Origin: Ulota crispa
Taxonomy: Eukaryota > Streptophyta > Bryopsida > Orthotrichales > Orthotrichaceae
NCBI GenBank assembly: GCA_963920765.1
Contig: OY987242.1
Span: 27,366,002-27,430,001 of the forward strand
Length of the DNA: 64,000 nt
Direction of reading: 5' to 3'
Below are positions 16,338 through 57,974 of the stretch, piece after piece. Position 1 is the first letter of the stretch. Each line of letters begins with the position of its first letter. The notes beneath the pieces are model-generated. The model searched no databases, was not told where the DNA came from, and saw only the letters and a program-made list of their open reading frames with translations. The position numbers and the translations under genes were made by a program.

Positions 16338-16717
16338 TTAACCTATAAATGCGGAGGTGGACATTTTTGTCGATTGGAGAACAAAAAAACACTCTATAAG
16401 ATGGAAAAAAAAGTCATTTTTCAACTAGTTTTTAAAAGTGATCACAAAAACATGGTCTATCATGGAAGGCAAAAAATAACCTCAATAAACACACTCATAT
16501 TTTTTAAGTAACCAAAATTGTAAGAAGATTCAAAAACATGGTGTTAGATCCCATATTACCCTTCTTTACAATTTTCATGGATTTAACTTGCACTATTGAA
16601 TATTACAGTTTTTAAAACAATAATATAATGAGTGGACATTTGCCACACCACTGTGAATCACTATAAAGTTCTGTAGAGGGACTGGTCACGGTGACCAACT
16701 CAGAGTTTATGGGTTAA
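16338..16717. mobile_element. Possible piggyBac-like element, short class
   Basis: Bounded by TTAACCTATAAATGCGGAGG at the left and ...CTCAGAGTTTATGGGTTAA at the right, in the same style as the TTAA-ended family but with diverged ends. The sequence just left of it (cacttaggggttaa) also looks like the right end of another copy. Confidence 0.4.
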
Positions 16718-17041
16718 TCATCTGAAACGCACCCCCAATATCCGTGAAGGCAAAAGGAAATTGTATAGAATCATCCTTGCGTGCACGTTCATCCTATTGG
16801 TAGTTTTCATTCAAATACTAGTAATTGAAGTTTTTTTAATAAAGAGATTTGGCAATTTTATTAGGTTTTCACCTGCTTTTCATTTCTGCTATCACGGTAA
16901 CCAGTGTCAAATGTGGCAAAATTCTGCCAAAAAAAATCCTATAAATTGTCTTGGTGTCACTAGCATAGAGAGTGTCGAGTCTAGCACTGCAAGTTTTTTG
17001 AAGGGACGATTTGACAAGAAAGTCTCCATTTTGGAGTCAAC

Positions 17042-17361
17042 TAAGGTAGTAACACCCACTAGCATTAGTTCAAGGGTTTTGAGCATGATGATTATCAATA
17101 AACATTTAGCAAAAGCATAGAATTTTATTAGGAACAAAAAAAATAATAAGTTTGCGTTTTCAAATGTATTATTTGGATACTGAGAGAATAAGTTGTGAAT
17201 TTTTAGAGAGCAAACTGCTGTTGCACCCATAATCAACATTAAGGTTTCATGTTCACATGTTGTACATCCTTGTAATTACATCTATTTACTTCCACATATT
17301 TTTAAAGATTTTATAAGTGATTGTTATGGGGACACTAATGCTTATGGACGTTCCTACCTTA
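17042..17361. mobile_element. MITE, TAAGGTAGGTACACCCATAAGC family, copy 1
   Basis: It opens taaggtagtaacacccacta and closes with the inverse ...cttatggacgttcctacctta. It shares interior text (atgtattatttggatact; ttcatgttcacatgttgtac) with copies at 28828-29152 and 59697-60016. Confidence 0.75.
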
Positions 17362-17404
17362 CATTACTAGAATAATCATTAACTTTGAGACAATATCACT
17401 ATCT

Positions 17405-18291
17405 TACAGTGACTCACAAAATTGTCGCAATGTTTGCTTCGACGCCATGTTTTTTTCAATATTTCCACTATATAGTGCCATAATATAGTTGGCATTTTAT
17501 CCTCAGATTTTTTGTATGTGATCCTTGTGCAATCATGATCAAGTATACCAAATTTCAGTTACTAAAAACCAAAATCCTATATTTGGCAAATTGTTTTGTG
17601 TCAAAATCATGATTTTACGAGAAAGTTAATTAAAAAAACATTGGTGATGAATATTTGAGATTTGAATGCATAGATATGTAGGAGACATCCATATGCACAT
17701 CTTTGTTTCAAACAATCATTTCCAAAAAGTTTCAAATTTCCTTCTACAAATATTTTAATGACTTGGTGATCATTACCAAATTTGGTAAAATAGAAAATTC
17801 TTCATGGAAATTAGTTTTTGGCAAAATAACTTATACATTGTGTTTACATGATGATATGTTTATTTTGCCAAAAACTAATTTCCATGAAGAATTTTCTATT
17901 TTACCAAATTTGGTAATGATCACCAAGTCATTAAAATATTTGTAGAAGGAAATTTGAAACTTTTTGGAAATGATTGTTTGAAACAAAGATGTGCATATGG
18001 ATGTCTCCTACATATCTATGCATTCAAATCTCAAATATTCATCACCAATGTTTTTTTAATTAACTTTCTCGTAAAATCATGATTTTGACACAAAACAATT
18101 TGCCAAATATAGGATTTTGGTTTTTAGTAACTGAAATTTGGTATACTTGATCATGATTGCACAAGGACCACATACAAAAAATCTGAGGATAAAATGCCAA
18201 CTATATTATGGCACTATGGCACTATATAGTGGAGATATCAAAAAAACATGGCGTCGAAGCAAACATTGCGACAATTTTGTGAGTCACTGTA
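17405..18291. repeat. 887-bp near-perfect palindrome, TA-flanked
   Basis: The sequence 17405-17840 is repeated almost base for base, inverted, at 17855-18291, with only a tiny loop at about 17848. The ends read TA-CAGTGACTCAC...GTGAGTCACTG-TA, which fits a Tc1/mariner-type foldback with TA target duplication. The few differences include a duplicated ggcactat in the right arm near 18214-18222 and single-base changes. No coding. Confidence 0.9.
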
Positions 18292-18419
18292 TGGATGAGC
18301 GTGAGAAGCTTACATTAAAAAACAGTTTTTGGAAACAAAACTAAAATATCAAAACTTCCTTGTTAAGTTGGTGCCCAAATGGGCTTGTAGAACCAAGCCC
18401 TTACATTGTAGCTTGATTC

Positions 18420-19074
18420 TTAACCCCTAAATGCCTGAGGACGTTTTTGAGCTTCTAGGAATGTGTTCTGAACTTAGCAAGAAGCCAGCATTTTGATAAA
18501 TTTTATTAGTTTTTTAAGATTGTAACTGTACAAATTTAAATTAGATATACTATAGTTCACATTGGAAAAAAAAACACAACAATATCACTTATAGATTAAA
18601 AGATTATATTGTTTGATCATGAGGGTGTTAAAAATGCAAAGATGACTTGAAGTTGTTTTATCCTCTTTTCACATGTTAAAGTTAAAAAACTGGTCACCAA
18701 ACAAATATGAAGCTAAGGGACATAACATACATAGCTTCAATTAATTTATGGCATTGCAAAATCTCTTCTACAATTTTTGAACATGAATTCTAAGTGTAGA
18801 TTTTTCTCCAAGATCTAGTATATGTGAGGCTCATTTCCAAGAGCTCTCAACACTTCAAAAAGTCAAGATTGTAGTAAACACACTTGCACAAAATCTTGAG
18901 TAGACTGAAAATCATAATTATTCATTTTCAAAATCAGATTTTTATGCCAAAACTAAACTTCAAAAAGAAAGCTCAAAACTACAAAACACTAAAATTAACA
19001 ACAAAGTTAGGTTTTATTGAACTTCAAAGTGTTGTGGACACCAAAATGTGATGCCTCAAGCATTTAGGGGTTAA
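18420..19074. mobile_element. piggyBac-like MITE, class B
   Basis: It begins TTAACCCCTAAATGCCTGAGG and ends ...GGCATTT...AGGGGTTAA (ctcaagcatttaggggttaa). It shares interior text (gcttctaggaatktgttct; aggctcatttccaagag) with 43560-44383, a longer copy. Confidence 0.75.
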
Positions 19075-19242
19075 AGACCGAGATTCTACAAGTGGCACAT
19101 GATGACGGATGAATGATTGATAAATCTTACATGTTTCAGCCGATCGAGTTTCAAAGTTTTACGTAGATTCATCAGCCTATTCAAGTTTGCAATTTACATT
19201 ACCTCAATAGGTGAGTGAGTCATTCTTAGAATCATAACATTA

Positions 19243-20283: not shown

Positions 20284-20414
20284 AAGGTAGGAGGCTCGTG
20301 AAAGGACCATCTAAGCCAAGTGCGCTTCTGTGGAAAAATCAGGGTAATTTGGTAAAATGGAAATATTTTTGGTAGAAAGCCAAAGAAGAAACACTTATTG
20401 TATGTGGTCATTTT

Positions 20415-20765: not shown

Positions 20766-21695
20766 TTAACCCTAAAGGACCATCGTCCATTTGTGGAATA
20801 AATGGGATTTTGGGCATGTACATATGGCTAAACTACGTTGTGTGATTTTTTGAAACTTTTATCAAAGGTGGGGAATTCAAAGATCTATGTAGGCATCTAA
20901 ATGTTTCTTCATTTTGTCATTTGACATAGAAGTTATGCAAGAATTTATGAAAATTTGGGGAGGATTGCCCATCTGGGTATCCCAAAAAACTTCTTTAAAA
21001 CTCACACTTTCTTTAAAAAAAAATTTGAAATTGGTTCTTTAGATTTTTTTTATACATGGGAAGCTATGAATCATTCAATTTCAATCAATGAGATGAAAGA
21101 TATAAGGAGTTTTTGTTTGCGGGCAGTTATGGATTCTCTACTCTAATATAAACTTTGAAGTTTTTTATTTTACTCAATTTTTAATTTTTTGGAAAAAAAA
21201 AACCAAAGGAAGTAGATTGTTTATTATAACACTATAACCATGGGGATTTGCATTTTTCATTTGAATAATTAAATTCTTAACAATCTAGTGTTTTGACTCA
21301 TTCTCTACTTCTTTTTGATTACTATTTTTTTCCCATGTGCTGTGTAGTTCCAATTGATTCGAAAATTCTCCCACATATACCTAACTTGATCTTCTACATG
21401 GTAAATTAAAAGCACAACTTTGGGTAGAGCAATTTTTTCATGTAAGAGTGGTCAAAGGCTTTTGAAATGTACCAACAACAAGGAAAAAAGACTTTTCCCT
21501 TTACTTCAAATGTAAATATCTCACTCCTCTCCATCTAGAATGACATGATTTTTTCCCACAATACTTCCTTTAGTTTAAGGCAAGATCTTACAGTTGGATT
21601 TTCAAAGGAAAAAAAATCTACCTTCTTACTCATCTCCTAGAAGTAGCAATTTTTAGTGATTTTGACGTTAAAAAGGACCCTCCTTTAGGGGTTAA
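20766..21695 (+). mobile_element. piggyBac-like MITE, class A
   Basis: It opens TTAACCCTAAAGGACCATCG and closes ...CCTCCTTTAGGGGTTAA. It contains the class A blocks 'aatgggattttgggcatgta', 'tatggctaaacta', 'gaaacttttatcaaaggtgg', 'atgaaagat' and 'gtggtcaaaggctt'. It is nested within the TAAGGTAGG element. No transposase frame is present. Confidence 0.85.
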
Positions 21696-23514: not shown

Positions 23515-24471
23515 TTAACCCCTAAAGGTCCATTGTTCCCTCGGGGGACAAATGGGATTTTGGGCAAGTACCTATGGCTAAACTACTTTGCGTGATTTTC
23601 CGAAACTTTTATTGAAGATGGGGAATTATAAGATCTGCGTGGGAATCTAATTTTTCCTTCATTCTGACAATTATTGAAGAAGTTATGCATGAATAACTAA
23701 ACATCAAGGGAGAATCGTGCAGCAAAAAAAAATTGCAATTTTTTAAATAAAATTTTGAAATTGGTTCTATATGTTTTTTTGTATTTGGGAAGCTTTTAAT
23801 CATTAAATAATGATACATGAGATGAAAGTTATGAGAAGTGTTAGTTTGCGGGTAGGTATGGGACTTCCAAACCTCCATTCCTTTTCCCCCTTGTAAAACT
23901 CGTTGCTTTACTTTTTTGAGCTCTTTGTGTATTTGTTTTTTGACTTTTTGTTTTTTGCAAGTTGTAGTTGACTAAGATTCCTTGGTTTTTACCATTTGGA
24001 TCAAAGTAATTTGGGTTTTTGAAATTTACATAAATCCTCCAATTTTGCCTAATGTATATGCAAATTTCATGACCTTACAGCATTACAAGATTTTACAAAA
24101 TATGATCCACACCTCCATTTCATTTAAAAATTCTCCCACATTTATCTAACTTGGTCTTCTACATGGGAAATATAAACCTCAACTTTGCATAGAGCAATTT
24201 TTTTGATATAGGAGTAGTCAAATGCATTTGAAATTTTTGGGCAGTAGGGAAAAAAACTTTTGTTTTCACTTCAGATGTCAGTATCTCACTTCTCTACAAC
24301 TAGAATGAGCTGATTTTTTTTCCCACAAGTACCTCTCATAGTCTAAGGCAAGATCTTCCAATTGGATTTCCATATATATATATATATATATATACATTTC
24401 TCCTCACTCCCCCAAAAATGGCAGTTTTGAGTGACTTTCACAAAAAAAGGACTTGGGCTTTTAGGGGTTAA
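23515..24471 (+). mobile_element. piggyBac-like MITE, class A
   Basis: TTAACCCCTAAAGGTCCATT to ...GGCTTTTAGGGGTTAA. Interior blocks are shared with 20766, 40965, 46781 and 49863 (ggacaaatgggattttgggc; tgcgggtagg; caagatctt). It carries an (AT)n microsatellite at 24371-24396. Confidence 0.85.
24371..24396. repeat. (AT)n microsatellite
   Basis: About 12 uninterrupted AT units inside the class A element. Confidence 0.9.
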
Positions 24472-24758: not shown

Positions 24759-25658
24759 TTAATCCCTACAGGACCAGACCCTCTTTTTTTAGAAACATAG
24801 CAATTTTGGGCAGGTACCTGTGGTTGGATCTTTTCATATTTTAAGTTGAAGTTTTAATAGAATGTGGGGACGATATGTACTGAATTTCATGACATTTGGA
24901 GTTATGAGTAAAAAGTTATGGTCAAATATGTTGTATTTTACGTTCAGCGAGCAACCTAGGCGGATTTTTTAAAATCACCTTTTTCAAAAACAAAATTTTT
25001 AATGGGTTTAGGAGATTTATGTGAATGTAGGAAGCTTTGAATTGTTCCATTTTAATCAACAAGATGAAAGTTATGATAATTTTAGTTTGTGGGCAGTTAT
25101 GGATTCACTACTCTAAAATAAACTCTAAATTCCTTTATTTTACCCAATTTTCATTATTTTGGAAAAAAAACAAAACCAAAGGATGTAGATTCTTTATGAC
25201 AACATTACAACCATTGGGATTGGCATTTTTCATTTCCATAATTAAATTCTTAACGATTTTATGTTTTGATCATTCTTTACTTCATTTTACTTACTAATTT
25301 TTTTCCATAACAATTCCAAATGATTTGAAACTTTTTCAACATGTACTTTACTTAGGTAGAATAAGGAATTTAGTGAAGCACCACCCACATGGCCTTTATT
25401 CCTTAGGAATTTCACCTTCCCAAGGGTAGCTGCCCAGTTTTCATATGATGTTTTTTAATATTCAAACCATTCTAACGTCCAATCCATGCAACGGAAAACT
25501 CTGAAATTTTTTCCACACCTTCTAAAACTATTCTTCTACAAGATCCTATGGACGCATATGCATAAAAATATTTTTGTTTTCAAATTTGATTGATGCTCTC
25601 AAAATGGTAGTTTTGGAGAGTTTTTGGTGAAAACTTTGCTTGGACCTTTAGGGGATAA
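24759..25658 (+). mobile_element. piggyBac-like MITE, class A, decayed
   Basis: TTAATCCCTACAGGACCAGA to ...GGACCTTTAGGGGATAA. The right TTAA has mutated to ATAA. Interior class A blocks (gggcaggtacctgtgg; atgaaagttatg) are present. Confidence 0.7.
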
Positions 25659-26662: not shown

Positions 26663-27593
26663 TTAACCCCTAAAGGACCAACTGTTTGTTCAACGGACAA
26701 ATGGGATTTTGGCATGTACCTGTGGCCAAACTGCTTTGCATAATTTTTTGAAACTTTTATCAAAGATGGGAAATTCAAAGATCTGCATGGGCATCTAATT
26801 TTTATTCCAATTGATGCCAAGGAGCAAAAGTTATGCCCAAATAAGCACAAATTTGGGGACTCCGTGCAGCAAAAGAAATTATTATAAAAACTTGAAAAAA
26901 AAATTCATTTTTTTTTCTCATAGATAATATCTTTGTCTACATCCAAAGCTTTGATTCATTCCATTTGGACTAGTTATGAGAAAGTTATGGACAATCTTGT
27001 TTTTTGGGCAGTTCAAGCATCTTCTTGAAAAAATAACTTATAAACGTCATTTTTGAATGCAATTTTAACATTTTTTCAAAAAAAATTGTTGGAGAGGGTG
27101 AAGTTTGCTTTCTAGAACAATCTCACCATTGGGATCATTGCATTTCAATTCCATTGCAGGGTTATTAGCAATTTAAGTTTTTGTTCAATCTCATACCATC
27201 TTCTGCCTAATGTTTTTTTTAAAGAAAGAAAATTAATTATTTTTTGTTTTTTTTTTTTCCCCAAGATTACCAACTCAACTTCCCACCATGCAAAAATAGA
27301 ATTCCAAACTCTGAGGTGCAAAAATTTTAAGTTAAAAATGTTCAAAATTAAATAATCTAGTCATGCAAGATGCAAAAAAAGCTATTATTTACTTTTTAAA
27401 CACAAATATCTTCCAACCTGTAAGGTCAAAGTTCTTGAGTTTTGTATGACACATTCTTATAGTAGTCCAGTACAAGATCCTATGGTTAGATATGCAAAAA
27501 GACCAATTTTCAAACCTTTTTACTCTTTGCCATAGAGGTGGCAGCTTTGCGTGTCTTTTGATAAAATAAAGGCCATGGTCCTTTAGGGGTTGA
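26663..27593 (+). mobile_element. piggyBac-like MITE, class A subtype
   Basis: TTAACCCCTAAAGGACCAAC to ...GGTCCTTTAGGGGTTGA (right TTAA mutated). It shares long interior stretches with 46781-47710 (atgccaaggagcaaaagtta; gttggagagggtgaagtttg), so these two are the closest pair. Confidence 0.85.
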
Positions 27594-28733: not shown

Positions 28734-28827
28734 AACTTTGTTGAGTTGTATATAGATAAAAGCAAATACAAAATAAATCATGTGAATTATTCCACTTTTG
28801 AAAATCTAGTAGAAATTGAAACACAAC

Positions 28828-29152
28828 TTAAGGTATGTACACCCATAAGCATCAAACTAAGGGTTTTGAACATGATGAGTATCAATAAACAGCTAGCAAA
28901 TTATAGGATCCTATTAGGAATAGAAAAATAGTAATTTTGCACTTTTGAATGTATTATTTGGATACTATGAGAATAAGTTGTGAATATTTAAAGTATAAAT
29001 TGCCATTGCACCCATAACCACTATTGAGATTTCATGTTCACATGTTGTACATCCATGCCATTACATCTATTCACTTCCACAGATTTTCCGAGATTTCAAA
29101 GGTGACAGTTATGGGAACAATGGTGCTTATGGGTGTGCATACCTTACATAAA
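28828..29152. mobile_element. MITE, TAAGGTAGGTACACCCATAAGC family, copy 2
   Basis: Ends ttaaggtatgtacacccata and the inverse ...tgggtgtgcataccttac. The interior is nearly the same as 59697-60016 (aggatcctattaggaat; ttatttggatactatgag). Confidence 0.8.
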
Positions 29153-29810
29153 AAGAAGGTTCATTCCAAAATGGTTCCCAAAATATTGAGGTGAACGTCA
29201 TGGGAAATTGTAGACTACAATGATTATAAGAAGGGGTTTCAAAGTTAAGACAAAAAACGCTTATATTTTCCAAATTTATCACACAAAACCTAATGCACAT
29301 AAAGTAACAAAATAACATGATAACATGCCTTGATTTTTTGTCCACCTATTCTCATCTATAGTAAATGAAGAAAACTGCTTGCCAAAGCATCCAAATGTGT
29401 CTTCTTATACTATGAAATTTCACTTCCACAGCAAATTTTATTTTATCATAACAATATTTTTGCCAACCACGCACGTCTTAGGTGATGAATTTTCTAAATT
29501 TGAAAACCTCTATGAAACAGAATTACAATCATACTAATATGACAAAAAAATCCAATCCGCATGATTGAATATCTAAGAAAAGTCTGTATAATCCAAACAA
29601 GTACCATCTACACCCAAATCAGGAGACTTACACAATGATCAAGTTCACATCCATTGGTTGAATCTTGATCATAAATTAGAGCAAGCAAAGTTGAATACAT
29701 TTTATTTATTATTTTGGAATGATGTTATTTCCAGTAGTGTTGCAATGCAATGGTGAGCTCAAATTTTGCTCTTTGATTGATTGTTCACCTTGATAAAGCA
29801 GAACCGGCAT

Positions 29811-30732
29811 TTAACCCCTAAAGGCCCAAGGAGTCTACTTTGGGCTTTATGAGAACTCGGGCAGGCTCTATTGACTTCATCATTTGGAAATTTTTCATTA
29901 AATTTTTAAGATGGATGCTATTCATCATAATCTACGTGTGAAGTTTTATTTCATGTCATTCCGATAAGTAATGCAAAAGTTAGAAGGTATTTTCAATTTC
30001 AATGTCAAATCGGGCAGCAAAAAATATATTCTAAAGTTTTTATTTTTATTTTTATATAATTGTATAGAATGATACCTACTCAAAAGAAAATTGAATCACT
30101 CAATTCCAAATAATGAGGTAAGAGTTAAAAGGAGTTTCATTTTGCAGGCAATGAAGGTAGGAAGCGGGTAGAAAAAACATATAAAGTTATTTTTTACTCT
30201 TAATGTTGAAAATTTTCATATGAGAATGAAAATGAAAGTTACTAATTGTCTATTAGAGCATTCTCACCATTGGGATTAACGATTTTCAAATTCTTCCAAA
30301 ACTTATTAGCATATAAGTTACATCTTTCATTCATCAATACCTTTCACTTAACAATTTTTGTAAAAATGAATCCAAAGTTTTTTTTGGTTAAATTTTTTTG
30401 TATATTCTTTCAACTCATTTTCCAACGTATTGCAAAAATTACACAAGAAATACAACATACGAGTTTTTCTCTAAAAAGTTTGAAAAACAAAACTTCAGCT
30501 TCTAGAAGAATTAGAAAAGCCTAAAATTTGAAGTTTGGGCACATTGATCTTGCAATTGGTGGGGATGTTCATTCTAAAATTTTGGGACAATGTAGTTATG
30601 CAAGTCAACTAAAGGATCCTACGGTTGGATTGGTGAAAAAGTAAGTTTCAATGAATATTTTGACCCTAGTTTGGGGACTAGTATTTTGAAGTAGTTTTGG
30701 GCCTCTAAACACAAAAGAATTTTAGGGGTTAT
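29811..30732 (+). mobile_element. piggyBac-like MITE, class A-related
   Basis: TTAACCCCTAAAGGCCCAAG to ...TTTTAGGGGTTAT. The right TTAA boundary is shared with the next element at 30729. Confidence 0.7.
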
Positions 30733-33144: not shown

Positions 33145-34059
33145 TTAACCCTTTAAGGACCACGCGACCATATTTTGGTCGCTGGGAGTGGTTTTTGGCC
33201 TGTAGGTTGAAATTGCTCAATAATTTGGAATTTGGTCTTGAAGTACGCATGTGATCACAAGAATTTCGCATCCATCTAAAAAAATAACAATACAATTGGG
33301 TATGTGAGTTGATAAATAATGGTGTTTATACGACATGGCTTCAAAATACGCATCCAATTTTTGTCAAAGATGGATCAAAGCAACAACTCAATACATCAAG
33401 TATGCAAGAAGAATGTCAAATTTTAATTGCACAATTCTAAAAAATTTCAAATTGTTTAAGAAATACACTTGTATTGTTTTCCTGTATGGTAGCAGTATAA
33501 TTATAGTATTTGAAGATCTCTTGAAATAGTGTTGTCATTTCATCTTTAAATTTTGTCATTGTGCATTTAAGGCCAATTCTTGATAGCCTTCACCAATTGG
33601 ATTTTCCAGAATAATTATCAAATTTCTTGTAGAACCGCTTTAGGGTAGCAAAGAAAGTGGGTTTTTTGACCCTTTTTGTACACTTAGCTACACCTTGTGA
33701 TTGCTATTTTTGTTTATTTTGTGTGAAACTAGTCTTGTTGGAAAGGTGGAAAACCCTGCTTTTTAGAAATGTAAGGCTCTTCTCAATCAAAGCTTGCATG
33801 AAGTGTTAACATTCAAAACTAAACAAGAATGAAACACAAGAGATTTTCCGCATACGGCTCATTCAATCATTATAATATTGCACCTCCAATGATAAATCTA
33901 ACTGAAATTTTGGTGCTTTACAATAAACAAGATGTACTTCCCACTTGTACTGTTGGATTATTGAAAATGGGTCCATATTTGAGTCAATTACAAATCTAAG
34001 CTTACAACCCCTCTTTTCAGTGGATTCTGTGAAAATGGGTGTGGTCGTTAAAGGGTTAA
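33145..34059. mobile_element. piggyBac-like element, class C
   Basis: TTAACCCTTTAAGGACCACG to ...GGTCGTTAAAGGGTTAA, with TTAA at both ends. The interior differs from classes A and B. Confidence 0.75.
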
Positions 34060-34544
34060 ATATCTTTTGTATTCAAACACCCATGAGCTCCTGTAGTCCT
34101 GTCCAGTGAACCTGCTAGCCATGCCTCGGGGCAGTGCTCTTGGAATGGCGCTCACAATTGAATGGGGGTGGAAGTGAGCTCCATTTTCGAGTGGCAGGGT
34201 TTACTGCACGTCCGTGTTTGTGGGGCCAGGGTGGAAGAGCTCAGAGTTTTCACTTATCATAAATTGTAAAAGTTTGGATGTTTACATCAAATAGTGCATT
34301 TAGGTTGCATCATACTAATTTCTTAAAAGTTCACACTATTCAAATATTTAACAAAACAATAGTAACTTTGGTCAATAATTATCATTAGAAGAAAATTCCG
34401 TTCAAAACAACAGAAAATCAACAGTTTCTTGTTGATTTGGGCACTTGCTCACACTAATTGATTAGTTTAACAAAATTTTGTAAAAAACTACATACATTCT
34501 GTTGATTTGAACACCATTATCTAAATCAACAAAAATTTTGGAAT

Positions 34545-35300
34545 CCTTTGGAAATCTTTTGGGAATTTTTTGTGAATCTTTAAGAATCTTTAAGAATCTT
34601 TTGGGAATCATTGAGAATCTTTTCAGAATTTTTAAGAATATTTAAGAATCTTTTCAAGATTTTTGAATCTTTGAGAATCTTCTTGGAATCTTGGAGAATC
34701 TTTTAGGAATCTTTGAGAATCTTTTAGGAATCTTTGAGAATCTTTGGAAATCTTTGGGAGTCTTTTTAAGTTTTTTTGGAATCTTTGAGAATGTTTGAAG
34801 ACATTTGAGAATCTTTGAGAATCTTTGAGAATCTTTTAGGAATCTTTGAGGATCTTTGGAAATCTTTGGAAATCTTTTCAAGTTTTTTTGGAATCTTTGA
34901 GAATGTTTGAGAATCTTTGGAAATCTTTGAGAATCTTTTTGGAATCTTTGAGAATCTTCTTGGAATCTTTAAGAATCCTCTTGGAATCTTTGAGAGTCTT
35001 TTAGGAGTATTTGAGAATTCTTGAGAATCTTTGAGAGTAGTTTGGAATATTTGAGAATCTTTGGAAATGTTCTAGGAATTTTGAATTTTTTTGAGAATTT
35101 TTGAAAATCTTTAATAATCTTCTTGGAATCTTCTTGGAAGCTTTGAGAAGCTTTGAGAATCTTTAAGAATCTTTGGGAATCTTTGGAAATCTTTTGAGAA
35201 TCTTTTTGAAAATTTTAAAAATCTTCGAGAATCTCTAAGACTTCTCAAGAACCTTTTTGGAATCTTTGAGAATCTTTTTAAAATCTTTATGAAATTTGTT
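34545..35300. repeat. Minisatellite, GAATCTTTGA-type unit
   Basis: Dozens of degenerate copies of 'gaatctttgagaatcttt(t/g)gg', unit about 10-12 bp, inside the CACTA-like element. Open frames here simply read the repeat (KIPKRFSKIPKRFSK on the minus strand). Confidence 0.9.
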
Positions 35301-37870: not shown

Positions 37871-38806
37871 TTAACCCCTAAAAGACTAAGCCATTTTTTC
37901 AGTGAAAATCACTCAAAATTGCCACTTTTGGAGGGTTAGTAAGAAGGTGATTTTTTTTGAAAATTTGGGAAATCCAACCATAGGGTCTTGCCCTAAACTA
38001 GATTAGGTACTTGTGGAAAAAAAATCAGGTCATTTTGGATGGACATGAGTGAGATGTTTACATCTAAAGTGAAAAGAAAGTTTTTTTTCATGCTGCCGCA
38101 AAATTTCAAAAGCCTTTGACCATTCTTACATGAAAATAATTGCTCTACGCAACTTTGCGCTTTATTTTTCCCATGTAGGAGATCAAGTCAGCTATGTGTG
38201 GGAGAATTTTCAAATCAATTGGAACTACACAACACATAGGAAAAATCAATAAGTAAAAAGAAGTAGAGAATGAGTCAAATCACTAAATTTTTAAGAATTT
38301 AATTATTAAAATGAAAAATGAAAATCCCAATGGTCATAATGTTGTGATAAACAATCTACATCCTTTAGTTTTGTTTTTTTCCAAAATAATAAAATTGAGT
38401 AAAATAAAGGACTTCAAAGTTTATTTTAGAGTAGAGATTTCATAACTGCCCGCAAACAAAAACTCCTCATAACTTTCATGTCATTGATTGAAATTGAATG
38501 ATTCAAAGCTTCTCACCTGTAAAAAGAATCTAAAGAACCAATTTCAAATTTTAATTTTTTTAAAAATTAGTTTTTAAAGAAGTTTTTGGGCTGCCCGGGC
38601 GGGCAGTCCTCCCTTGCTTTTGAGATTTTCATGCATAACTTCTTCAATAATTGTTGGAATGAGGAAAAAATTAGATGTTTGTGTAGATTTTTGAATTCCC
38701 CACCTTCAATAAAAGTTTCAGAAAATCATACAAAGTAGCTTATTCAAAGGTACATGCCCAAACTCCCACCTGTCCCCCAAAGGGACAACAGTCCTTTAGA
38801 GGTTAC
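37871..38806 (-). mobile_element. piggyBac-like MITE, class A, inverted
   Basis: TTAACCCCTAAAAGACTAAG to ...AGTCCTTTAGAGGTTAC. It reads class A backwards (tcccccaaagggacaacagtcc at the right). A lone left-type end (TTAACCCTTTAGGGTC) lies at 37804, just outside. Confidence 0.8.
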
Positions 38807-40964: not shown

Positions 40965-41924
40965 TTAACCCCTAAAGGACCAACTGTCCCCTCGAGGGAC
41001 AAATGGATTTTGGGCATGTATCTATAGCTTATCTACTTTTTGTGATTTTTTGAACTTTTATTGAAGGTGGGGAATTCAAAGCTCTACGTGGGCATCTAAA
41101 ATTTTCTTCATTTTGACATTTATTGAAGAAATTATGCATGCATTTCTGAAAAAGGGCAAGGGCAGGCAGCCCAAAAAAAAATCAAAGTTGCATTTTTTTT
41201 TTTTTAAAATCTGAAATTGGTTCTTTTAGATTTATACAAATTTGGGAATCTTTAAATCATTCAGTTTTGATTGATGAGATGAAAGATATGAGAAGTTTTA
41301 GTTTGCGGGTAGATATGGGACTCCCAAACCTCCATTCTTTTTGCCTCTTGTAATATTTGTTTCTTTCCTTCTTTGAGCTCTTTGTGTATTATTTTTTTGA
41401 CTTTTTCTTTTTCCAAGTTGTAGTAGACTAAAAATTCCTTGGTTTTCACCATTTGGATCAAAGTAATTCAGATTTTTGAGTTTTACATAAATTCTCCAAT
41501 TTTGCCTAGCGCATATGCAAATTTCATGGCCTTACGGTATTGCATGATTTTACAAAGTATGATCCACACCTCCATTTCATTTGAAAATTCTTCCACACAT
41601 ACTTAACTTGGTCCTCTACATGGGAAAAATAAACCTTAACTTTGCGCTAAGCAATTTTTTTGATATAGGAGCCGTCAAAGGCTTCTGAAATTTTTGGGCA
41701 GCAGCAAAAAAAACTTTTTCCCACTTCAAATGTCAATATCTCACTCCTCTACATCTAGAATGAGCTGAAATTTTTCCTACAAGTACCTCTCATAGTCTAG
41801 GGCAAGATCTTACGGTTGGATTTCCAAAAAAAAACTTGTTTTGCTAACTTTTTACTCATTCCCCCAAGAGTGGCAATTTTTAGTGATTTTAACAGAAAAA
41901 AGGGCTTGGTCCTTTAGGGGTTAA
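40965..41924 (+). mobile_element. piggyBac-like MITE, class A (best preserved)
   Basis: TTAACCCCTAAAGGACCAAC to ...GGTCCTTTAGGGGTTAA, with a perfect 16-bp inverted repeat and intact TTAA on both sides. Its right TTAA is also the left TTAA of the neighbour at 41921. Confidence 0.9.
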
Positions 41925-42899
41925 TCCCTCATTGCCTAAGGTCCAAAGAGGCCCAAACGCATCCTTGCTTTTCGAGTGTTGTTAGTCTAAATATAAGTGA
42001 AGTATGAAAATCTTAGCCATACAATCTTGTAGTGTGCATGTTGCAAATGATGTGGATCAAATTTGGGGTCATTTGACCACATATACTGGAAGATTATAAT
42101 GTTTTAGTGTTGATAAAAGATGTAGGAATTTTCTTAAAAACATGTTTGGAGGTGAAATTTGATATCTAAACCTACTCAAATGAAATTACTGAAAACGTAA
42201 AGTGGTTCAAAACTAATATACAAACACATTAATGAAAGAAAATATCATTTGATAGACTCATTGTGTTTGCAAATTTGTTTTGAACTATCCAAAAAGAGTG
42301 AAAAAAGTAGCAAACAATCACATCTATGGCTATACCTCCCTCTACTAAAATGCTTCTCATTCACTCACAACTTCTTTGATTGACATGGAATTCTAATAGC
42401 AACAACTAGACTAGTATAGGCAACTTTTCTGAAAAATTTTATTGAAAAAAGAAATTGTATGAAGATGTTATAAGCCACCAAAGTTCATTGTAATGCAAAA
42501 ATGTGTGGGTTTTGAACTTTGAGTTGCTCCTAAGCATTCAAATGAACTTGGATTGACATGAAAATTTTACCACAATTACTAGACTTTAAGGGGAACATAA
42601 CCCATCAAATTTTATTGAAAAATACATTTGATGAAAATGATACAAGCCTCCAAAGTTGCAACCATCACAATGCAATGAGGTGAACTCAAATTGACCTTGT
42701 GAACTTTGAATGGTTTTCACAAACTCAATATATCTTAGACTGATTTGAGATTTCTTTAGTAGAAACTAGACTAGAATGCGCAACTTTTCCAACAAATTTT
42801 ATTGGATTTGAATATTATATGCAAAATTTATAACTTTTCAAATTGAATTGCTAGACTATGAGAGAACACTTTTAGTCCCCTTAGGCAATGAGGGGTTAA
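41921..42899. mobile_element. piggyBac-like element, class D
   Basis: TTAATCCCTCATTGCCTAAGG to ...CCTTAGGCAATGAGGGGTTAA. The interior differs from class A. It shares the TTAA at 41921-41924 with the preceding element. Confidence 0.8.
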
Positions 42900-43237: not shown

Positions 43238-43477
43238 TTAACCCTTAAAGGACCGCTCTACATATTACATAGTAAATACGCTGCCGTATAACTGGCATTT
43301 GCTACCAATAAAAAGTTTTCATTTGGGATCTTGACTAGCTCACTAGAACCGCATTGATCTATATTCTAGCTTCTTTGTTGATCTCAAATGTAATACAGGT
43401 GTGGATGCATTCCAAATACAAGAAAACACTAAATACTATATTGGTTGCAAAGGGCTCCTCAGTCCTTTAAGGGTTAA
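43238..43477. mobile_element. piggyBac-like MITE, class E (240 bp)
   Basis: TTAACCCTTAAAGGACCGCT to ...CAGTCCTTTAAGGGTTAA. Interior 'gcatttgctaccaa' and 'caaatacaagaaaa' are shared with 56233-56451 and 57732-57974. Confidence 0.85.
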
Positions 43478-43559: not shown

Positions 43560-44383
43560 TTAATCTCTAAATGCCTAAGGTAATTTTTGAGCTTCTAGGA
43601 ATTTGTTCTAAGTTGGACAAAACGTCAAAATTTTGATGGATTGCATTATTATTTTTTAAATTGTAACCATTCAAAATCAAATTGCATATGTTGGAGATCA
43701 CATAGGAAAAGAAAGCACAACAATATCATTTATGGATATTATAATATTTGATCAAGAGGGTGTTAAAACTTTGAAAATGACTTTAAGTCTTTCAATCCTC
43801 TTTTCAAATGTCAAATCTAAAAAAATGGTCACTTGAAAAATATGGGTTAAAGGACATAACATACATAACTCCAGTCAATATACGGCTTTTCAAAATCTCC
43901 TCTACAAACTTTTTAAATGAATTCATTAGAAGAGAATTGCCAAAAAATTGTGTTCCACTTAACAAAAAATGTGAGGTTGATTGTGTTGAGTTCTCCATTT
44001 CCAACACAAAATTACGTTGGAAATGGAGAACTCAACACAATCAACCTCACATTTTTTGTTAAGTGGAATGCGGTTTTCTAGCAGTTTGCTTCTAATGATT
44101 TCTATTGTAAATTTTTCTCCAAGGTCTAGTGTATTTTGAGGCTCATTTCCAAGAGTTCTCAACACTAAAAAAGACAAGATTGCAATGAACACCCTTGCAC
44201 AAAACCTTGAATAGAAAATCATAAACAATCATTTACAAAATCAGTTTTTTGATGCTAAAACTAAACTTCAAAAATAAAAGTTAAAAATTAAAATCTACTA
44301 AAAGTAGCAACTTCGTTAGGTTTTATAGAAGTTCAAAGTATTGACAACATCATAATGTGGTGCCATGGGCATTTAGGGGTTAA
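43560..44383. mobile_element. piggyBac-like element, class B, with an internal palindrome
   Basis: TTAATCTCTAAATGCCTAAGG to ...GGGCATTTAGGGGTTAA. Relative to the 18420 copy it has about 150-180 bp of extra sequence, most of it a perfect hairpin (43953-44068). Confidence 0.75.
43953..44068. repeat. Perfect hairpin, about 50-bp arms
   Basis: ttccacttaacaaaaaatgt... is repeated inverted to ...cattttttgttaagtggaa around the short loop acaaaattac. Weaker pairing extends to about 43925 and 44098. Confidence 0.85.
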
Positions 44384-46004: not shown

Positions 46005-46474
46005 CCTAAGCTTTTTAGTAGGAAATATGCTAGCCAAATTTTGTATCTTTAAATTTGCATTGAATTCTGAAGTACAAGGGCACAATCTAGGGCATTTTTT
46101 TTGTTTTTGGTGGTCAGCCACTATGGCTACTTGTTTGAAATATACAAAGCCGGACATGCGATTTTTTTTATTTTTAAGGAGAAAACGTATGGCATTGAGT
46201 GAAAAGTGTAGGCAGTATTTTGGCAACAAAGTAAACTCTTTGAATTCAAGTGCAGAGGGGTACACTTGGCTTAAGATTTTTTTTGCAGGGAACTTGCACC
46301 AAAAAGTTTAGGAACTTCCGAAGGCCATAATTTCCTCAAAAATTGTCTATTTTTTAAACCAAAAATTGCACTAAAATCATATTGAAGGGTACTACATGAT
46401 TTGATTTTTAAAAAATCTAAAAGTTTACAAATAATAATAAAAGTTTGGCTACTTCCTATATAGTGTCTACCATC

Positions 46475-46620
46475 TAGTACTTCCACCTCTTGTTGAAATC
46501 ACCGCTTCAATTCAATTGGGCATTCTTGCAATAAGGGTTTGTAATTTCTCCATGGATACCTCACCCCAGAGTCTTTGAATGATATGTATCATTTCTTGCT
46601 TGTTCTTTGGCTGTTGGTGG
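46475..46620 (-). pseudogene. Tc1-like transposase C-terminus (relic)
   Basis: The minus strand reads QQPKNKQEMIHIIQRLWGEV, then SMEKLQTLIARMPN, a stop, then IEAVISTRGGSTRW and a stop. This matches the ending I know for Tc1/mariner transposases (a 'LW..V....L..LI..MPRR..AVI...GG.TRY' pattern), with TGA in place of one Arg codon. The catalytic region is missing. Confidence 0.7.
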
Positions 46621-46780: not shown

Positions 46781-47710
46781 TTAACCCTTAAAGGACCATT
46801 GTCTCTTTGGAGGACAAATGAGATTTTGGGCAGGTACCTACGGCCTCAATTTTTGTCATGGTTTTTTGAAACTTTTTTTGAAGATGGAAAAACACATTAG
46901 CTTTTGGGGAGTATAATTTTTATTCCAATTGATGCCAAGGAGCAAAAGTTATGCCCAAATAAGCACAAATTTGGGGACTAGGGGCAGCAAAAAAAAATCT
47001 TATAAAAACTTGAAAAAAAAAATTCGCTTTTTTTTCTTATAGATTATATCTTTATCTACTTCTGGAGCTTTGATTCATTCCATTTGGACTAGTTATGAGA
47101 AAGTTATGGACAATCTTGTTTTTTGGGCAACTCAAGCATCTTCTTGAAAAAATAACTTATAAACTTCACTTTTGAATGCAGATTTAACACTTTTTCAAAA
47201 AAAATTGTTGGAGAGGGTGAAGTTTGCTTTCTAGAACAATCTCACCATTGGGATTATTGATTTTCAATTCCATTGCAAGGTTACTAGCAATTTAAGTTTT
47301 TCTTCAATCTCATACCTTCCTCTACCTAATGGTTTTTTAAAGAATGAAAATGAAGTATTCTTTTTTGAAAAAATTTCCCAAGATTCCCAACTCAACTTCC
47401 CACCATGCAAAAATAGAATTCCAAACTCTAAGGTGCAAAAATTTTAAGTTAAAAATGTTCAAAGTTAAAAAATCTAGTCAAGCAAGGTGCAAAAAAAGTT
47501 GTTTTTTACTTTTTAAATGTAAATATCTTCCAATTTGTGCGGTCAAAGTTCTTGAGTTTTGTATGACACATTTTTATAATAGTCTAGCACAAGATCCTAT
47601 GGTTAGATATGCAAAATGCCTGATTTTCAAACTTTTTTATTCTTTGCCATAGAGGTGACAATTTTGAGTGTCTTTTGACAAAATAAAGGCCATGGTCCTT
47701 TAGGGGTTAA
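46781..47710 (+). mobile_element. piggyBac-like MITE, class A subtype
   Basis: TTAACCCTTAAAGGACCATT to ...GGTCCTTTAGGGGTTAA. The interior closely follows 26663-27593. The uninterrupted Tc1 foldback arm (TTAA at 46353-46356) preserves the pre-insertion site. Confidence 0.9.
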
Positions 47711-49561: not shown

Positions 49562-49866
49562 TTAACCCCTAAATGCTAGAGTGGTTACCGTGGTTGCTCC
49601 TCTATAGTAGCACTATTATGGTGTGGCAAGTGTTTGCTTTTTATAATATTATTTACAAAATTTGTAGACTGAAGTCTTCTCACAATTTGAGTTACCATAA
49701 ATATGCATTCAATGAGGTAATATTTTTTCCCTCCATGATATACCATGTTGAGGTGATCACTTCTATAAAAGAAACAATTGAAATACAAGTTTTTTCCATC
49801 ATTTTAATAGTTTTTTAAAAAATATGTAGAAAATGAAACCCATTAGCCTCAACCTTTATGGGTTAA
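49562..49866. mobile_element. piggyBac-like MITE, short class
   Basis: TTAACCCCTAAATGCTAGAG to ...AACCTTTATGGGTTAA. Its right TTAA is shared with the class A element that follows. Confidence 0.7.
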
Positions 49867-50816
49867 CGCTCAAAGGCCCAAGTGGCCCCTCAAGGGCCAA
49901 GTGGGATTTGGGCATGTGCCTATGGCTAAACTACTTTATGTGATTTTTTGAAACTTTTATGGAAGATGGGGAATTCAAAGATCTACGTGGGTATCTAATT
50001 TTTTCTTCACTTTGACATTTATTGAAGAAGTTATGCATGAATAATTGAAAAACAAAAGAGGAACGGGCAGCCCAAAAAAAAATAGTGTTTTTTTTAAATA
50101 AAAATTTGAAATTGGTTCTTTAGATTTTTATATATGTGAGAAGCTTTGAATCATTGAATTCTGATTGATGAGATAAAAGTTATTTCAAGTTTTAGTTTGC
50201 GGGTAGATATGGGACTCCCAAACCTCCATTCATTTATTTCCTTTTGCCCCTTGTAATATTTGGTGCTTTACTTTTTTGAGCTCTTTGTGTATTTGTTTTT
50301 TGAAATTTTTTTTCCAAGTTGTAGTAGACTAAAAATTCCTTGGTTTTCACCATTTGGATCATAGTAATTCAGATTTCTATATTTTACATAAATCCTCCAA
50401 TTTTGCCTAGTGTATATGCAAATTTCATGACCTTACAGCATTGCAAGATTTTACAAATTATGATTCACACCTCCAATTCATTTGAAAATTCTCCCACACA
50501 TACATAACTTGATCTTCTACATGGGAAAAAAAACTTCAGCTTTGCATTTTTTTTGATATAGGAGTGGTCAAAGGCTTCTAAAAATTTTGGGTAGCAAGGA
50601 AAATAACTTTTTTTTTCACTTTAGATGTCAACATCTCACTCATGTACATCCAACATGAGCTAGTTTTTTTTCTCACAAGTACCTCCCATAGTCTAGAGTA
50701 AGATCTTACGATTGGATTTCCAAAAATAATAATTTCCTACCATTCTACTTATTCCCCAAAAAGTGACAGTTTTCAATGACTTTCATAGAAAAAATGGCTT
50801 GGACCTTTTGGGGTAG
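49863..50816 (+). mobile_element. piggyBac-like MITE, class A
   Basis: TTAACGCTCAAAGGCCCAAG to ...GGACCTTTTGGGGTAG (right TTAA lost). Class A blocks are present throughout (gaaacttttatggaagatgg; tttgcgggtagatatgggac). Confidence 0.8.
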
Positions 50817-51112
50817 TTTTTGAAACTGTATGTGTTAAAAAATTGGTACAAGTTTTGATGTCCTTAACTCTTAGTGTAAATAGCCCCTTTACATAACACA
50901 TGGAACATATCATGTAATGTTTGGAGAGATTTTAAGCTTTACCAGCAAAAATCTAACATTTCTCATTTTTCAACCTATTTTTGAAGTACATGCACTTGAA
51001 GTTGCCTACATCTATACTCCATTCTAGATTTTTTTTTTGAAAATCTAGCCAATAAGTTTTAAACAGATTCAAATTCCAATAGTTTTTTTGTGCTATTTGT
51101 TTGGCTGACTTA

Positions 51113-51239: not shown

Positions 51240-51281
51240 ATTATCATTAGGATCTCCTCGTTCATTGGACATGAGTGCAAG

Positions 51282-52233
51282 TTAATCCCTAAAGGCCCAA
51301 GCATTTTTCTATAGTGAAAGTCACTGTTAACTGTCACTTTGGGGGGATTTAGTAGAAAAGTAGGAAATAAAGTTTGTTTTGCAAATCCAACCATAGGATC
51401 TTGCCTTAAACTAGAAGAGGTACTTGTGGGAAAAAATGAGGTCATTCTAGATGGAGAGGAGGGAGATACTTACATCTAAAGTGAAAAAAAAGGTTTCTTT
51501 TTGTGCTGTCCAAAAAACTTCAAAAGCCTTTGTCCACACTTACATGAAAAAAATTGCTCTACATAAAGTTCAAGTTTATTTTTTCCATGTAGCAGACCAA
51601 GTTAGGTATGTGTGGGAGAATTTTCAAATCAATTGGAACTATACAACACATGGGGGAAAATAGTAAGTAAAATGAAGTAGAGAATGAGTCAAATCACTAA
51701 ATTGTTAAGAATTTAATTATTCAAATGAAAAAATGAAAATCCCAATGGTTATAATGTTGTGATAAACAATATACTTTCTTAGGTTTAGTTTTTTTTCAAA
51801 ATATTAAAAATTGTGGAAAATAAATGACTTCAAAGTTTATTTTAGAGTAGAGAATCCATAACTGCCCACAAACTAAAAACATCTCATAACTTTCATCTCA
51901 TTGATTGAAGGTGAATGATTCAAAGCTTCCCACATTTAAAAAAATCTAAAGAACCAATTTCAGATTTCTATTTTTAGAAAATACAAAATTTTAAGAAGTT
52001 TTTGGGCTACCCGGATTGCCCTCCCTCCTCCAGACAACAAAAATTCTTGCATAACTTCTTTGTCAAATGTTAGAATGATGAAAAAATTAGATTCCCGGAT
52101 AGATCTTGGAATTCTTCACCTCCAGTAAAAATTTTAAAAAATCACAAAAACTAAATTAGCTATATGTACATGCTCAAAATCTCAACTGTCCCCCGCGGGG
52201 ACAACTGGGGACAACTGGGCCTTTAGGGGTTAA
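51282..52233 (-). mobile_element. piggyBac-like MITE, class A, inverted
   Basis: TTAATCCCTAAAGGCCCAAG to ...GGGCCTTTAGGGGTTAA. It reads class A in reverse (gtcccccgcggggac at the right). An 'acaactggggacaactgggc' duplication lies near the right end. Confidence 0.85.
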
Positions 52234-53417: not shown

Positions 53418-54017
53418 TTAAACCCTAAAGGTTTGTTGTCTCCTCAAGGGACAAATGGAATTTTGAGCACGTACCCATGGTTAAACTACTTTGTATGAAA
53501 TTATGAAACTCTTATTGAAGGTGGGGAATGCAAAATTCTATGAAGGCAACTAATTTTTTCTTCTTTCCAACATTTGACAAAGAAATTTTGCAAGAAAAAT
53601 ATCAAAACTAGGAGAAGAGGGGCAGCATAGGCAGTTTGGATAGCCCAGAAAACTTCTTCAAAAATTATGCTTTTTTTAGTAAATTTGAAATTGGTTCTTT
53701 AGATTTACATATTAGATTATTAGTGGGAAGAATTGAATCATTCAATTTCAAAGTTTTATGTTAAAAAAATGTAAATTTTAAAAATACTTTTGGGCTGCCC
53801 AAACTACCCCACCTCTCTAAGTTTTGATAAATTTTTGCATAGCTTCTTTGTCAAATGTCAAAATGAAGAAAAAATTAGATGCCCATATAAACTTTTGCAT
53901 TCCCCACCTTCACTAAGAATTTCAAAAAATCACACAAAATAGTTTAGCCATGGGTACAAGCCCAAGATCCCACTTGTCCCCTGAGGCCTAAGGGAACAAC
54001 AGTCCTTTAGGGTTTAA
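53418..54017. mobile_element. piggyBac-like foldback made of two class A left ends
   Basis: TTAAACCCTAAAGGTTTGTT to ...AGTCCTTTAGGGTTTAA. Both halves carry class A left-end text in opposite orientation (acccatggttaaactacttt and aaatagtttagccatgggta), so the element is a palindromic derivative. Confidence 0.75.
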
Positions 54018-55225: not shown

Positions 55226-55635
55226 TACTGTAGGTTGAGAGCAGATTCGGCATAAAATAATTCCTCAAAATTTTGCCCAATTATTCCATAAATTATTCTT
55301 CAAAAATTTTCAATGTCAAACAAATCAAAAAATTGAAATGCCAAATAATATAAAAGACATTAAGCTTAGCTAAGAGGGGAAGTTTAAGGTTGATTCCAAG
55401 AGGGCTCAATCTACTGCAAATTTTATACCAAGGGCTAATTTTAGAAGGTGGAAGATGCTTAGGGAAAAGGCTTAATTCTACTAGAAAATTTGGTTGAATA
55501 CCAAATAATAACAACTTTTCTGAAAGTGCCCAATCTTGGTTAATTACAATTACAAAAGCAGATGCCGAAGTTGTTTTTTCTCAAAAAATAATTGATTCGG
55601 CACAGACGTGTGAATTGGCTCTCAACCTATAGTAT
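55226..55635. mobile_element. MITE with ATACTRTAGGTTGAGAGC ends
   Basis: atactgtaggttgagagcag at the left; inverse ...gctctcaacctatagtat at the right. 'gattcggca' is also mirrored. Confidence 0.75.
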
Positions 55636-56232
55636 GTGACAAATTTTGTCATTGAGTGTCTTCATTACTTTTGAAGCAAGTCTTTGAATCAATCCATGTT
55701 GAGGTGGACAAAAAAAACTAGCAAAAATAAAGATACTGTTTCTAGTATCTTCTAAGGCTATTACTCATTCTGTCTCAAAAACTCCAAACACATGCTTTGT
55801 CCTACCAAGTATTGTTTGGAATTGAAGCATATCTAATATAGCTATAATAAGATAAAATGAGATCTCATTGGAAATATAGCATTTTCCTTAAAATCATTGT
55901 GGCCTACACTAAGAAATTTGTTATGTCTTAACTCTTGATGTATTTCTTTTCTTTTGACAAAATTTCTAATATGCTAAAATCATCGTCGACATGGTCAAAT
56001 GCTAGGCGTGAAATACAAAGAAAAGAAATAAAAGTCACGTTGCAATGTGACATTTTCATGTATTCAATGTTGTGAGAATCATAGAAGTACATTGCCCTTG
56101 GCCTATGTATAATTCCCAACAGTTGAGACATAAATATGTTCCCCACCTCCCCTATTGTCAAAGGAAGAATGCTGAACTCAACCACATTTTTGTTGATTTT
56201 TGTATTTGTCTACCAACTAATGCTTTTATAAC

Positions 56233-56451
56233 TTAACCCGTAAATGTCCCATGGCTATAGTAGATACGCTACCATATAATTAGCATTTATTACCAACAAG
56301 AAGTTTTAATTTGGAATTACAAATATCTCACTTTGTAAAATAATGGTCTATATTCTAATTTCTTTGTTGAGACATAGATCCATTCCAAATACAAGAAAAA
56401 CACCTTGTACTGTACAAGTTGCAAAGGCCCTTTCAGACGTTTAGGGGTTGA
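56233..56451. mobile_element. piggyBac-like MITE, class E
   Basis: TTAACCCGTAAATGTCCCAT to ...GACGTTTAGGGGTTGA. Interior 'cttctttgttgag' and 'caaatacaagaaaaacac' match the other class E copies. Confidence 0.75.
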
Positions 56452-56539
56452 AAAAAATTGTAAAAAGACATGATTTTTTTTTTATAAAATTCTCTCATTG
56501 TTGGATATTTTGAACGTACACCACCAATTTGAAGTTATA

Positions 56540-56721
56540 AGGTAGGAACACCCAATATCAATCATGTACCTAATGGCGTCACTATGAATACAAGGTGATC
56601 ATTTGAAAACTCAAATCTAAATATGCCATAGATAATTGACATACCTAAATTTTACCTCTCAAAAGATCATCTTGTGTACATAGTGACGCCATTAGATACA
56701 TAATCGGTATTGGGTATACCT
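56540..56721. mobile_element. Hairpin MITE with AGGTAGGAACACCCAATA ends
   Basis: aggtaggaacacccaatatc and its inverse ...ggtattgggtatacct, with arms that continue through 'ctaatggcgtcactatg' / 'catagtgacgccattag'. Confidence 0.8.
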
Positions 56722-57731
56722 GTGTCATTGTCTCAACTGCAAGATGCTGTATCCATGTTGTAACTGCCGTTTTAGTGCTATGCCTTGTTTGCCTAAAAAT
56801 CTAATGATAAGTGAGATGTCCAGCTCTTCATGCATTTTGGCACATTGTCGTAACCAGGGCACAAAGTACTGTACTGTACAGTAAGTTAAAGTCAAAACTT
56901 AAGGGTGGATCTGGTGAAGTATAACACTGATAGTCCTCTCCATTTGTATGATGGAAAACAGCGACTCCATTAATTGACCACGACAATTACAACCTCTTCC
57001 AACCACAAAGGTTGACCAAGATCTTTGTTCAAGCGCCCCCAGTAAATCTCCTTCTCTCATAGGAATGAACCGCGCGACGTTAAATCGAGCCCACGCAAGT
57101 GGGCCAAGCCTACGTGGACTTTGGGGCAAGACAAGGGCCCGGCTGCCCGAAAACGACCCCGTTCTGTGTCAAATCCCGTCAGGCCCCTTTGTCCTGCGCA
57201 ATACGGCTCTTGTCACACCCTTGTCAGACTCTTGCGCCCTGCACAATATACTCTGTCAGCTCTATTGACAAAACAACTTGTAAGGGAGTGGGGATTTATC
57301 CCACATTGTTTGGCATTGTGGGTGAGGTACTTTGGGTACAAGAAGTACCACTTGAAAGAGAAGAAACACACATTCAATTGCATTTCTCTCTAAGCAAAAA
57401 TCTACACCAAGAGCAAGAATTACCAAGCATCGCAATCTACAAAGTTTTCACCCTTGCAAAGCTTCACAAACTACTTGATACAAATTTCAACAAGTCTTCA
57501 AATTGTATTCAAATTGTATGTATGTGATAATGTCACAAAAAGTGGAGATGTGATATTATAGAGGTCAAGATGTGATATTACAAAGGTCACTATGAATGTA
57601 TCTACAATATCACACAAAGTGAAGAAGTGATATTAAAGAGGTTACGCTATGATACTATAGTGATATTAAAGAGGTTAGGATGTGATATTAACAAGGCTAG
57701 GCTGTGATATTAACGAGGCTAGGCTCTGATA

Positions 57732-57974
57732 TTAACCCTTAAAGGTTGGGGCTACTATTATACATACTTTGTATGGTGCTGTATAACTAGCATTTGCTAC
57801 CAACAATTTTTTTATAATTTAGGATCTTGACTACCTCACAAGAACATCATTGATATATGTTCTAACTTCTTTGTTGATCTCAAATGTAATAAAGGTGTGG
57901 ATGCACTCCAAATACAAGAAAAATATATCATATTGTATTGGCCGCAAAGGGTTGCCTTGTCCTTTAGGGGTTAA
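57732..57974. mobile_element. piggyBac-like MITE, class E, with visible empty site in the partner arm
   Basis: TTAACCCTTAAAGGTTGGGG to ...GTCCTTTAGGGGTTAA. The left arm of the large inverted repeat reads ...CTCTGATATTAA, the element, then TTAAAGAGAATAGTG. The right arm, inverted, reads CTCTGATATTAAAAAGACTT with a single TTAA (58908-58911). Confidence 0.9.

Follow-up and report, generated by a model that had tools for sequence, protein, structure and literature searches.

The transposon piggyBac, a laboratory workhorse from insects, is associated mainly with animals. The nearest described case that was found is that of the coral Acropora, whose CMITEs, described together with AmiPB1 in the available passages of PMC2872659 (the papers cited here by PMC number are all drawn on through such passages), form families of miniature inverted-repeat transposable elements (MITEs) with TTAA targets and CCC-starting ends, are linked to a piggyBac-like element with transposase in the coral's own genome, and have left traces of both insertion and excision. 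The subject of the present analysis is a window of 64 kb (the whole stretch of DNA analysed, positions 27366002-27430001 of contig C1 in an assembly of 274.8 Mb and 157 contigs), which is crowded with short TTAA-bounded elements; these are, almost certainly, non-autonomous, MITE-type piggyBac members in the nuclear genome of a moss, derived from several transposase lineages and presumably moved in trans. The coral host is an animal and tandem arrays are reported for its CMITEs, whereas neighbouring moss copies share a TTAA at the rate predicted by TTAA density (see below). With piggyBac of Trichoplusia ni (PDB 6x67) and piggyBat (PDB 9c0f) the moss system has in common a catalytic domain of PF13843 type, judged by sequence, and the TTAA target; T. 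ni piggyBac is however 2,472 bp long (PMC10813416), against 5.0-6.0 kb for the moss elements where both ends are seen, and the moss transposases are mostly broken and reside in a plant.

Exact TTAACCC heptamers occur 35 times in the window, both strands counted, and the exact core end TTAACCCYTAAAKG 19 times, compared to none in each of 50 dinucleotide-preserving shuffles. Lenient pairing of inverted ends yields, between 16338 and 57974, 21 elements of 219-1349 bp, a count in which some partner ends are decayed (such as ACTACCCCAAAAGG at 50817 and GTAACCTCTAAAGG at 38806), while some exact TTAACCC sites stay without a partner (such as those at 19240 and 52584). Since the sequence directly outside the TTAA is unrelated from copy to copy, the TTAA is the border of the element. 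The first-pass annotation, made from the letters of the window alone, had spoken of about 20 copies with common ends, occupying about a quarter of the window and encoding no transposase, and in this it was right: the elements add up to 16,082 bp (25%, with the shared TTAA of four pairs counted twice), tblastn with 34 transposase domains of the same genome as queries gave no match in the window, and none of the 120 matches to the piggyBac transposase domain PF13843 (DDE_Tnp_1_7), obtained with 116 of 528 candidates scored, lies inside it.

The source element, which the same annotation had placed elsewhere, is indeed to be found outside the window. At least 120 matches to PF13843, merged to about 116 places (best E 1.3e-73), were obtained genome-wide, and such counts are a lower bound, 116 of 528 candidates having been scored. 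A looser look at the flanks, which followed a stricter one, revealed right ends of the MITE type at L009, L014 and L018, some 1.4 kb beyond the domain; when ten transposase loci were read to 9-10 kb (three picked for a right end already seen, seven by rank, clade or open frame), a right end was present in all ten, 1,364-2,333 bp past the domain, compared to a chance expectation, estimated from the genome-wide end count, of about 0.06 ends of this kind per kb and locus. At five of the ten, both ends flank the transposase, 5.0-6.0 kb apart:

L039, 3863-8889: transposase element of 5,027 bp, both ends
L040, 3796-8897: transposase element of 5,102 bp, both ends
L041, 3897-8922: transposase element of 5,026 bp, left end decayed to TTCACCCC
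L048, 1971-7426: transposase element of 5,456 bp, right end TCAACCCC
L050, 582-6591: transposase element of 6,010 bp, left end TTAACTCC

Two of these, L039 and L041, align over 5,029 bases with 90% identity, the alignment stopping within one base of both TTAAs. The right end only was seen at L042, L046, L047, L049 and L055, and four more loci (L056-L059), read to 4.5-5.5 kb, had no end pair. The single transposase compared with solved structures, that of L042, matches piggyBac 6x67 (4.1e-20) and piggyBat 9c0f (5.8e-17). At the positions which we take to be those of the catalytic triad, 31, 26 and 28 of the 34 domains aligned, most of which are pseudogenes, have an aspartate, and two of the three sites align to T. 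ni piggyBac in the L042 comparison.

Kolobok and Sola3 also use a TTAA target. The TTAA alone therefore does not separate them from piggyBac, and the MITEs might belong to one of these, or to another TTAA-duplicating superfamily; this is extremely unlikely, given that ends of the same type close all ten PF13843 loci read to 9-10 kb, that one MITE class and the right half of another match PF13843 loci in sequence (see below), and that short inverted ends starting with CCC, as found in the window and genome-wide, characterise piggyBac in published sets (PMC10813416, PMC2872659). The attribution of TTAA plus CCC-starting ends to piggyBac in the first-pass annotation is borne out by the same loci and by the structural matches of L042; neither termini running past the TTAA without its duplication nor matching ends on a different autonomous superfamily, which it had named as grounds for abandoning this view, turned up.

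The interior classes are more numerous than first described. The five classes initially proposed agree in size with those measured (A 900-960, B 655 and 824, C 915, D 979, E 219-243 bp), but there are further ones (F 922, G 1349, H 305, one element of 380 bp and a palindromic A form of 600 bp), and class A, when 17 copies from the window and the loci were compared, splits into four or more multi-copy subfamilies that share their ends. The elements are the following (strand given as +, - or, where none is assigned, a full point):

16338-16717 (.), 380-bp element, left end decayed; from its ends; TTAA common with another end at 16341
18420-19074 (+), class B, 655 bp, ends TTAACCCCTAAATGC; homologous to 43560-44383
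20766-21695 (+), class A, 930 bp; ends, within-window and 17-copy comparisons
23515-24471 (+), class A, 957 bp; ends; positions 431-957 match L047 right end
24759-25658 (.), class A-like, 900 bp, ends decayed; ends, within-window comparison
26663-27593 (+), class A subfamily with 46781-47710 and L007, 931 bp; ends, copy comparisons
29811-30732 (.), class F, 922 bp; ends, the pair being the same as at L004
30729-32077 (.), class G, 1349 bp; both termini match L048 element; TTAA common with class F
33145-34059 (+), class C, 915 bp; ends; full-length relatives L040 2817-3729 (82%) and L042 729-1637 (81%)
37871-38806 (-), class A, 936 bp; ends, copy comparisons
40965-41924 (+), class A, 960 bp; ends; positions 447-960 match L055 right end, 79.6%
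41921-42899 (.), class D, 979 bp; ends like L039/L041; TTAA common with preceding class A copy
43238-43477 (+), class E, 240 bp; ends, within-window comparison
43560-44383 (+), class B, 824 bp, hairpin insert at 43906-44115; ends, within-window comparison
46781-47710 (+), class A subfamily, 930 bp; ends; related empty site 46253-46518
49562-49866 (.), class H, 305 bp; ends; TTAA common with next copy
49863-50817 (+), class A, 955 bp, right end decayed; ends, copy comparisons
51282-52233 (-), class A, 952 bp; ends, copy comparisons
53418-54017 (.), palindromic class A form, 600 bp; ends, within-window comparison
56233-56451 (.), class E-like, 219 bp; ends, within-window comparison
57732-57974 (+), class E, 243 bp; ends; related empty site 58891-59061

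Two side observations belong to members of this list. The hairpin insert of the longer class B copy (arms of 100 nt, 85%) is without counterpart in the 18420-19074 copy, and the alignments of the two copies around it show an overlap of 8 bp, consistent with a target duplication of that length by a transposon of another type. The class E copy at 57732-57974 starts at the end of the left arm of an inverted duplication (57072-59571; arms of 664 nt, 99% complementary, 1,172 nt apart), which holds 22-bp tandem repeats containing TTAA.

The descent of the MITEs from transposase-bearing elements is clearest for class G. The right end of L048, inward to 6838, is matched by positions 6-74 and 517-1034 of this class, and the left end by positions 1056-1349 (65%, E 2.8e-8); as both termini are matched, the middle of L048 with the transposase is what class G misses, which makes class G a relative of the L048 element with an internal deletion, that is, a MITE derived from piggyBac. 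For class A, positions 431-957 of one copy match the last 526 bp of L047 (76%), positions 447-960 of another match the last 514 bp of L055, and L046 has the same right end in shorter pieces; the L047 and L055 matches start at a nearly equal position of the MITE and are about equally far from the transposase, so that a truncated MITE lying there by chance is less likely. The transposases of L046, L047 and L055 (tree labels L011, L025 and L038) fall in one clade with L026 and L034. Classes D and C have end variants in common with L039/L041 and L042, respectively, without long interior matches. Individual MITE classes share their end variants with particular transposase lineages, namely G and B with L048, A with L046/L047/L055, D with L039/L041, and C with L042. 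Several such lineages (elements of 5.0-6.0 kb where both ends are seen) most likely moved by cut and paste into TTAA sites; internally deleted and palindromic derivatives kept the recognised ends and, presumably mobilised in trans, reached tens of thousands of copies.

For the short classes another origin can be imagined, whereby unrelated sequences gained piggyBac ends and were then cross-mobilised. When class E, class H and the 380-bp element were compared by blast with nine transposase loci, only short terminal matches or copies of the same MITE were obtained; such an origin of some classes, above all of these three, is possible, if rather unlikely, the loci compared being nine, later fourteen, of about 116. 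Descent from transposase elements is presumed here for the short classes, as it is for the left half of class A.

A number of observations weigh against the account given so far. About 440 bp of class G (positions 75-516) have no counterpart in L048, and its left arm is matched weakly (65%, E 2.8e-8). The right ~520 bp are all that is established of the source element of class A, since some 4 kb of sequence next to L046, L047 and L055 revealed neither the left half nor the left end of this class; moreover, class A copies also lie near transposases by chance (L048 about 732-1596, L050 8114-9001). The class A end, with at most two mismatches, was not found at the first 30 loci with 1.5-kb flanks, and the ten loci read further are a non-random draw, three having been selected after their right end was seen. 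As to the empty sites described in the next paragraph, two of the four no longer read TTAA (TAAA and CCAA), and that of 57732 reaches only about 20 bp past the junction.

The TTAA target, also claimed by the first-pass annotation, finds support in related empty sites. For 47 elements and composites, the two flanks were joined and compared with the DNA of this analysis, and eight rows crossed the junction; four of these are related empty sites and fit a TTAA target, while the other four were rejected, being the element's own neighbourhood or the edge of a similar element. The four sites are:

46253-46518, empty site for window element 46781-47710: reads TAAA
empty site for L001 1501-2455: reads CCAA
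empty site for transposase-bearing L040 3796-8897: reads TTAA
58891-59061, empty site for window element 57732-57974: reads TTAA; 96.5% over 173 bp, about 20 bp beyond the junction

Two of them thus preserve an intact single TTAA, and together with the TTAA borders and unrelated flanks they indicate duplication of the target. The pattern TTAANNNTTAACCCYTAAAGG occurs 486 times, and among the 100 matches listed the spacer is CCC in 36 and GGG in 34 (counted by eye). GGG spacers are what a normal junction gives when the end has the form TTAAGGGTTAA, and CCC spacers arise when an element has inserted at the inner TTAA of an end like this; since equal targeting would give more GGG than CCC, some excision footprints are possible among the spacers, of which they may be a small share. 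At L055 7081-7091 an extra GGGTTAA lies outside the right end, with no element beyond.

Four pairs of neighbours among the 21 elements share a TTAA (16338/16341, 30729/30732, 41921/41924 and 49863/49866), and 1,558 such junctions, with up to three mismatches, were counted genome-wide (control 0), which would speak for preferential insertion at the edge TTAAs of copies already present. This preference did not survive a control for TTAA density: exact junctions number 573 and outward-facing end pairs with their TTAAs 0-60 bp apart 207, a ratio of 0.36, whereas equal targeting predicts 0.38, as follows from the 16 TTAAs counted in the 60 bp beyond each of 42 edges (a small sample); edge preference is therefore very improbable.

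The scale of the phenomenon is genomic. With at most one mismatch, TTAACCCCTAAAGGNCC is found at 14,390 + 14,452 places (reversed-pattern control 1 + 1), and the broader pattern TTAACCCYTNANNGNCC, matched exactly, at 15,685 + 15,633 (31,318 ends; reversed control 4 + 5, in all 9). The share of the window in the latter is 14 matches for 21 elements, and scaling from this one window leads to perhaps 47,000 elements and 36 Mb, or 13% of the genome, figures to be taken as an order of magnitude only. What is new is the host and the scale, with a piggyBac clan making up perhaps 13%, by this crude estimate, of a land-plant genome.

Most of the transposases carry stops. Stop-free matches to PF13843 are 10 of 120 and none spans the whole domain; the longest, that of L042, covers 2-340 of 349 and loses the frame just after. 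The closest pair among the 17 MITE copies compared is 92% identical. An old swarm, mostly or wholly silent by now, would be the simplest reading. That the clan is still active, with an intact autonomous copy somewhere and MITEs still moving, seems improbable on the strength of these broken frames and diverged copies; in its favour are the ten stop-free matches themselves, obtained with 116 of 528 candidates scored, the 96.5% likeness over 173 bp of the insertion at 57732-57974 to its empty site, and the locus L056 (C1:1178600-1183600), which reads stop-free across a predicted intron. At 2050-3738 of L056, a piggyBac transposase-like sequence consists of two stop-free pieces (profile 30-166 and 166-349), which join across this predicted intron of 279 bp with GT-AG borders; TTAACCC-type ends were not found at L056 in the 5 kb read. 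L056 is a candidate for either a domesticated gene or the youngest transposase. It is doubtful, and we would not expect it to hold, that piggyBac is a major, long-lived lineage of moss DNA transposons left unlabelled in published moss genomes and that, in addition, the host has retained one copy or more (L056 among them) as a gene of its own, which may still act on TTAA sites or MITE ends; an unlabelled moss piggyBac could sit, for instance, inside the 23.68% of DNA transposons given for the moss Pohlia nutans (PMC9247546).

A strong claim of novelty is tempered by the literature, inasmuch as piggyBac is said to have been isolated from plants, among others (PMC10813416), and a review includes PiggyBac among the plant class II superfamilies (PMC10794571). 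The piggyBac label also appears in the repeat tables of land plants, namely C-fern (1,230 hits, 0.00%; PMC6890710) and Stellaria (60 hits, 2.3 kb; PMC13180808), whereas the moss has tens of thousands of ends, transposases and empty sites. The titles and passages searched, a body outside which lie preprints, most subscription papers and Repbase, contained no report of a native moss piggyBac; one of two matches to 'piggybac', in a moss paper (PMC10619864), proved to be the word 'piggybacking', and the piggyBac system is described as yet to be tested in Physcomitrella (PMC5505980). About 31,000 recognisable ends and many transposase lineages in a moss make a natural land-plant piggyBac concrete and give genome annotators a family to label; old vertical inheritance as opposed to horizontal transfer into mosses becomes testable, and, with regard to the use of piggyBac as a tool, cross-mobilisation could be checked in a moss so rich in related ends.

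The identity of the host, described at first as plant-like, can be narrowed down by its LEAFY gene. SAM_LFY (PF01698) is matched at six places genome-wide (best 1.2e-27), and two exons downstream of the best match are matched by C_LFY_FLO; the second exon retrieves PDB 4bhk_A (FLORICAULA/LEAFY HOMOLOG 1) with E 3e-72, the next LEAFY chain following at 3e-51, and differs from it in two residues among 105 readable (counted by eye). The protein of 4bhk is, we assume, that of the moss Physcomitrella, and the near identity of the DNA-binding exon to it therefore makes the genome that of a moss. The other five SAM_LFY matches are weak (C1:33973746, C3:21851572, C10:3335821, C5:13921926 and C2:25193267) and C_LFY_FLO is matched only at the LEAFY gene, so that the SAM domain alone may have expanded.

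As for the remainder of the window, its left part is GC-richer; Pfam gave no match in six frames of 1-4952 and 7501-12452, within this part, nor in four open reading frames between 8728 and 13268, a tRNA search with a bacterial model found none, and Rfam had no match at gathering score. A near-perfect palindrome occupies 17405-18291 (arms of 358 nt and 52 nt, both 100%, with a centre of 30 nt) and a further palindrome 62084-62332 (arms of 123 nt, 98% complementary, 3 nt apart), a degenerate tandem array of the AGAATCTTT type, with a period of about 10, covers 34536-35288, and a dispersed repeat, some 330 bp long and without relation to the TTAA elements, is present at 17038-17380, 28824-29165 and 59697-60017, its copies being 79-86% alike.

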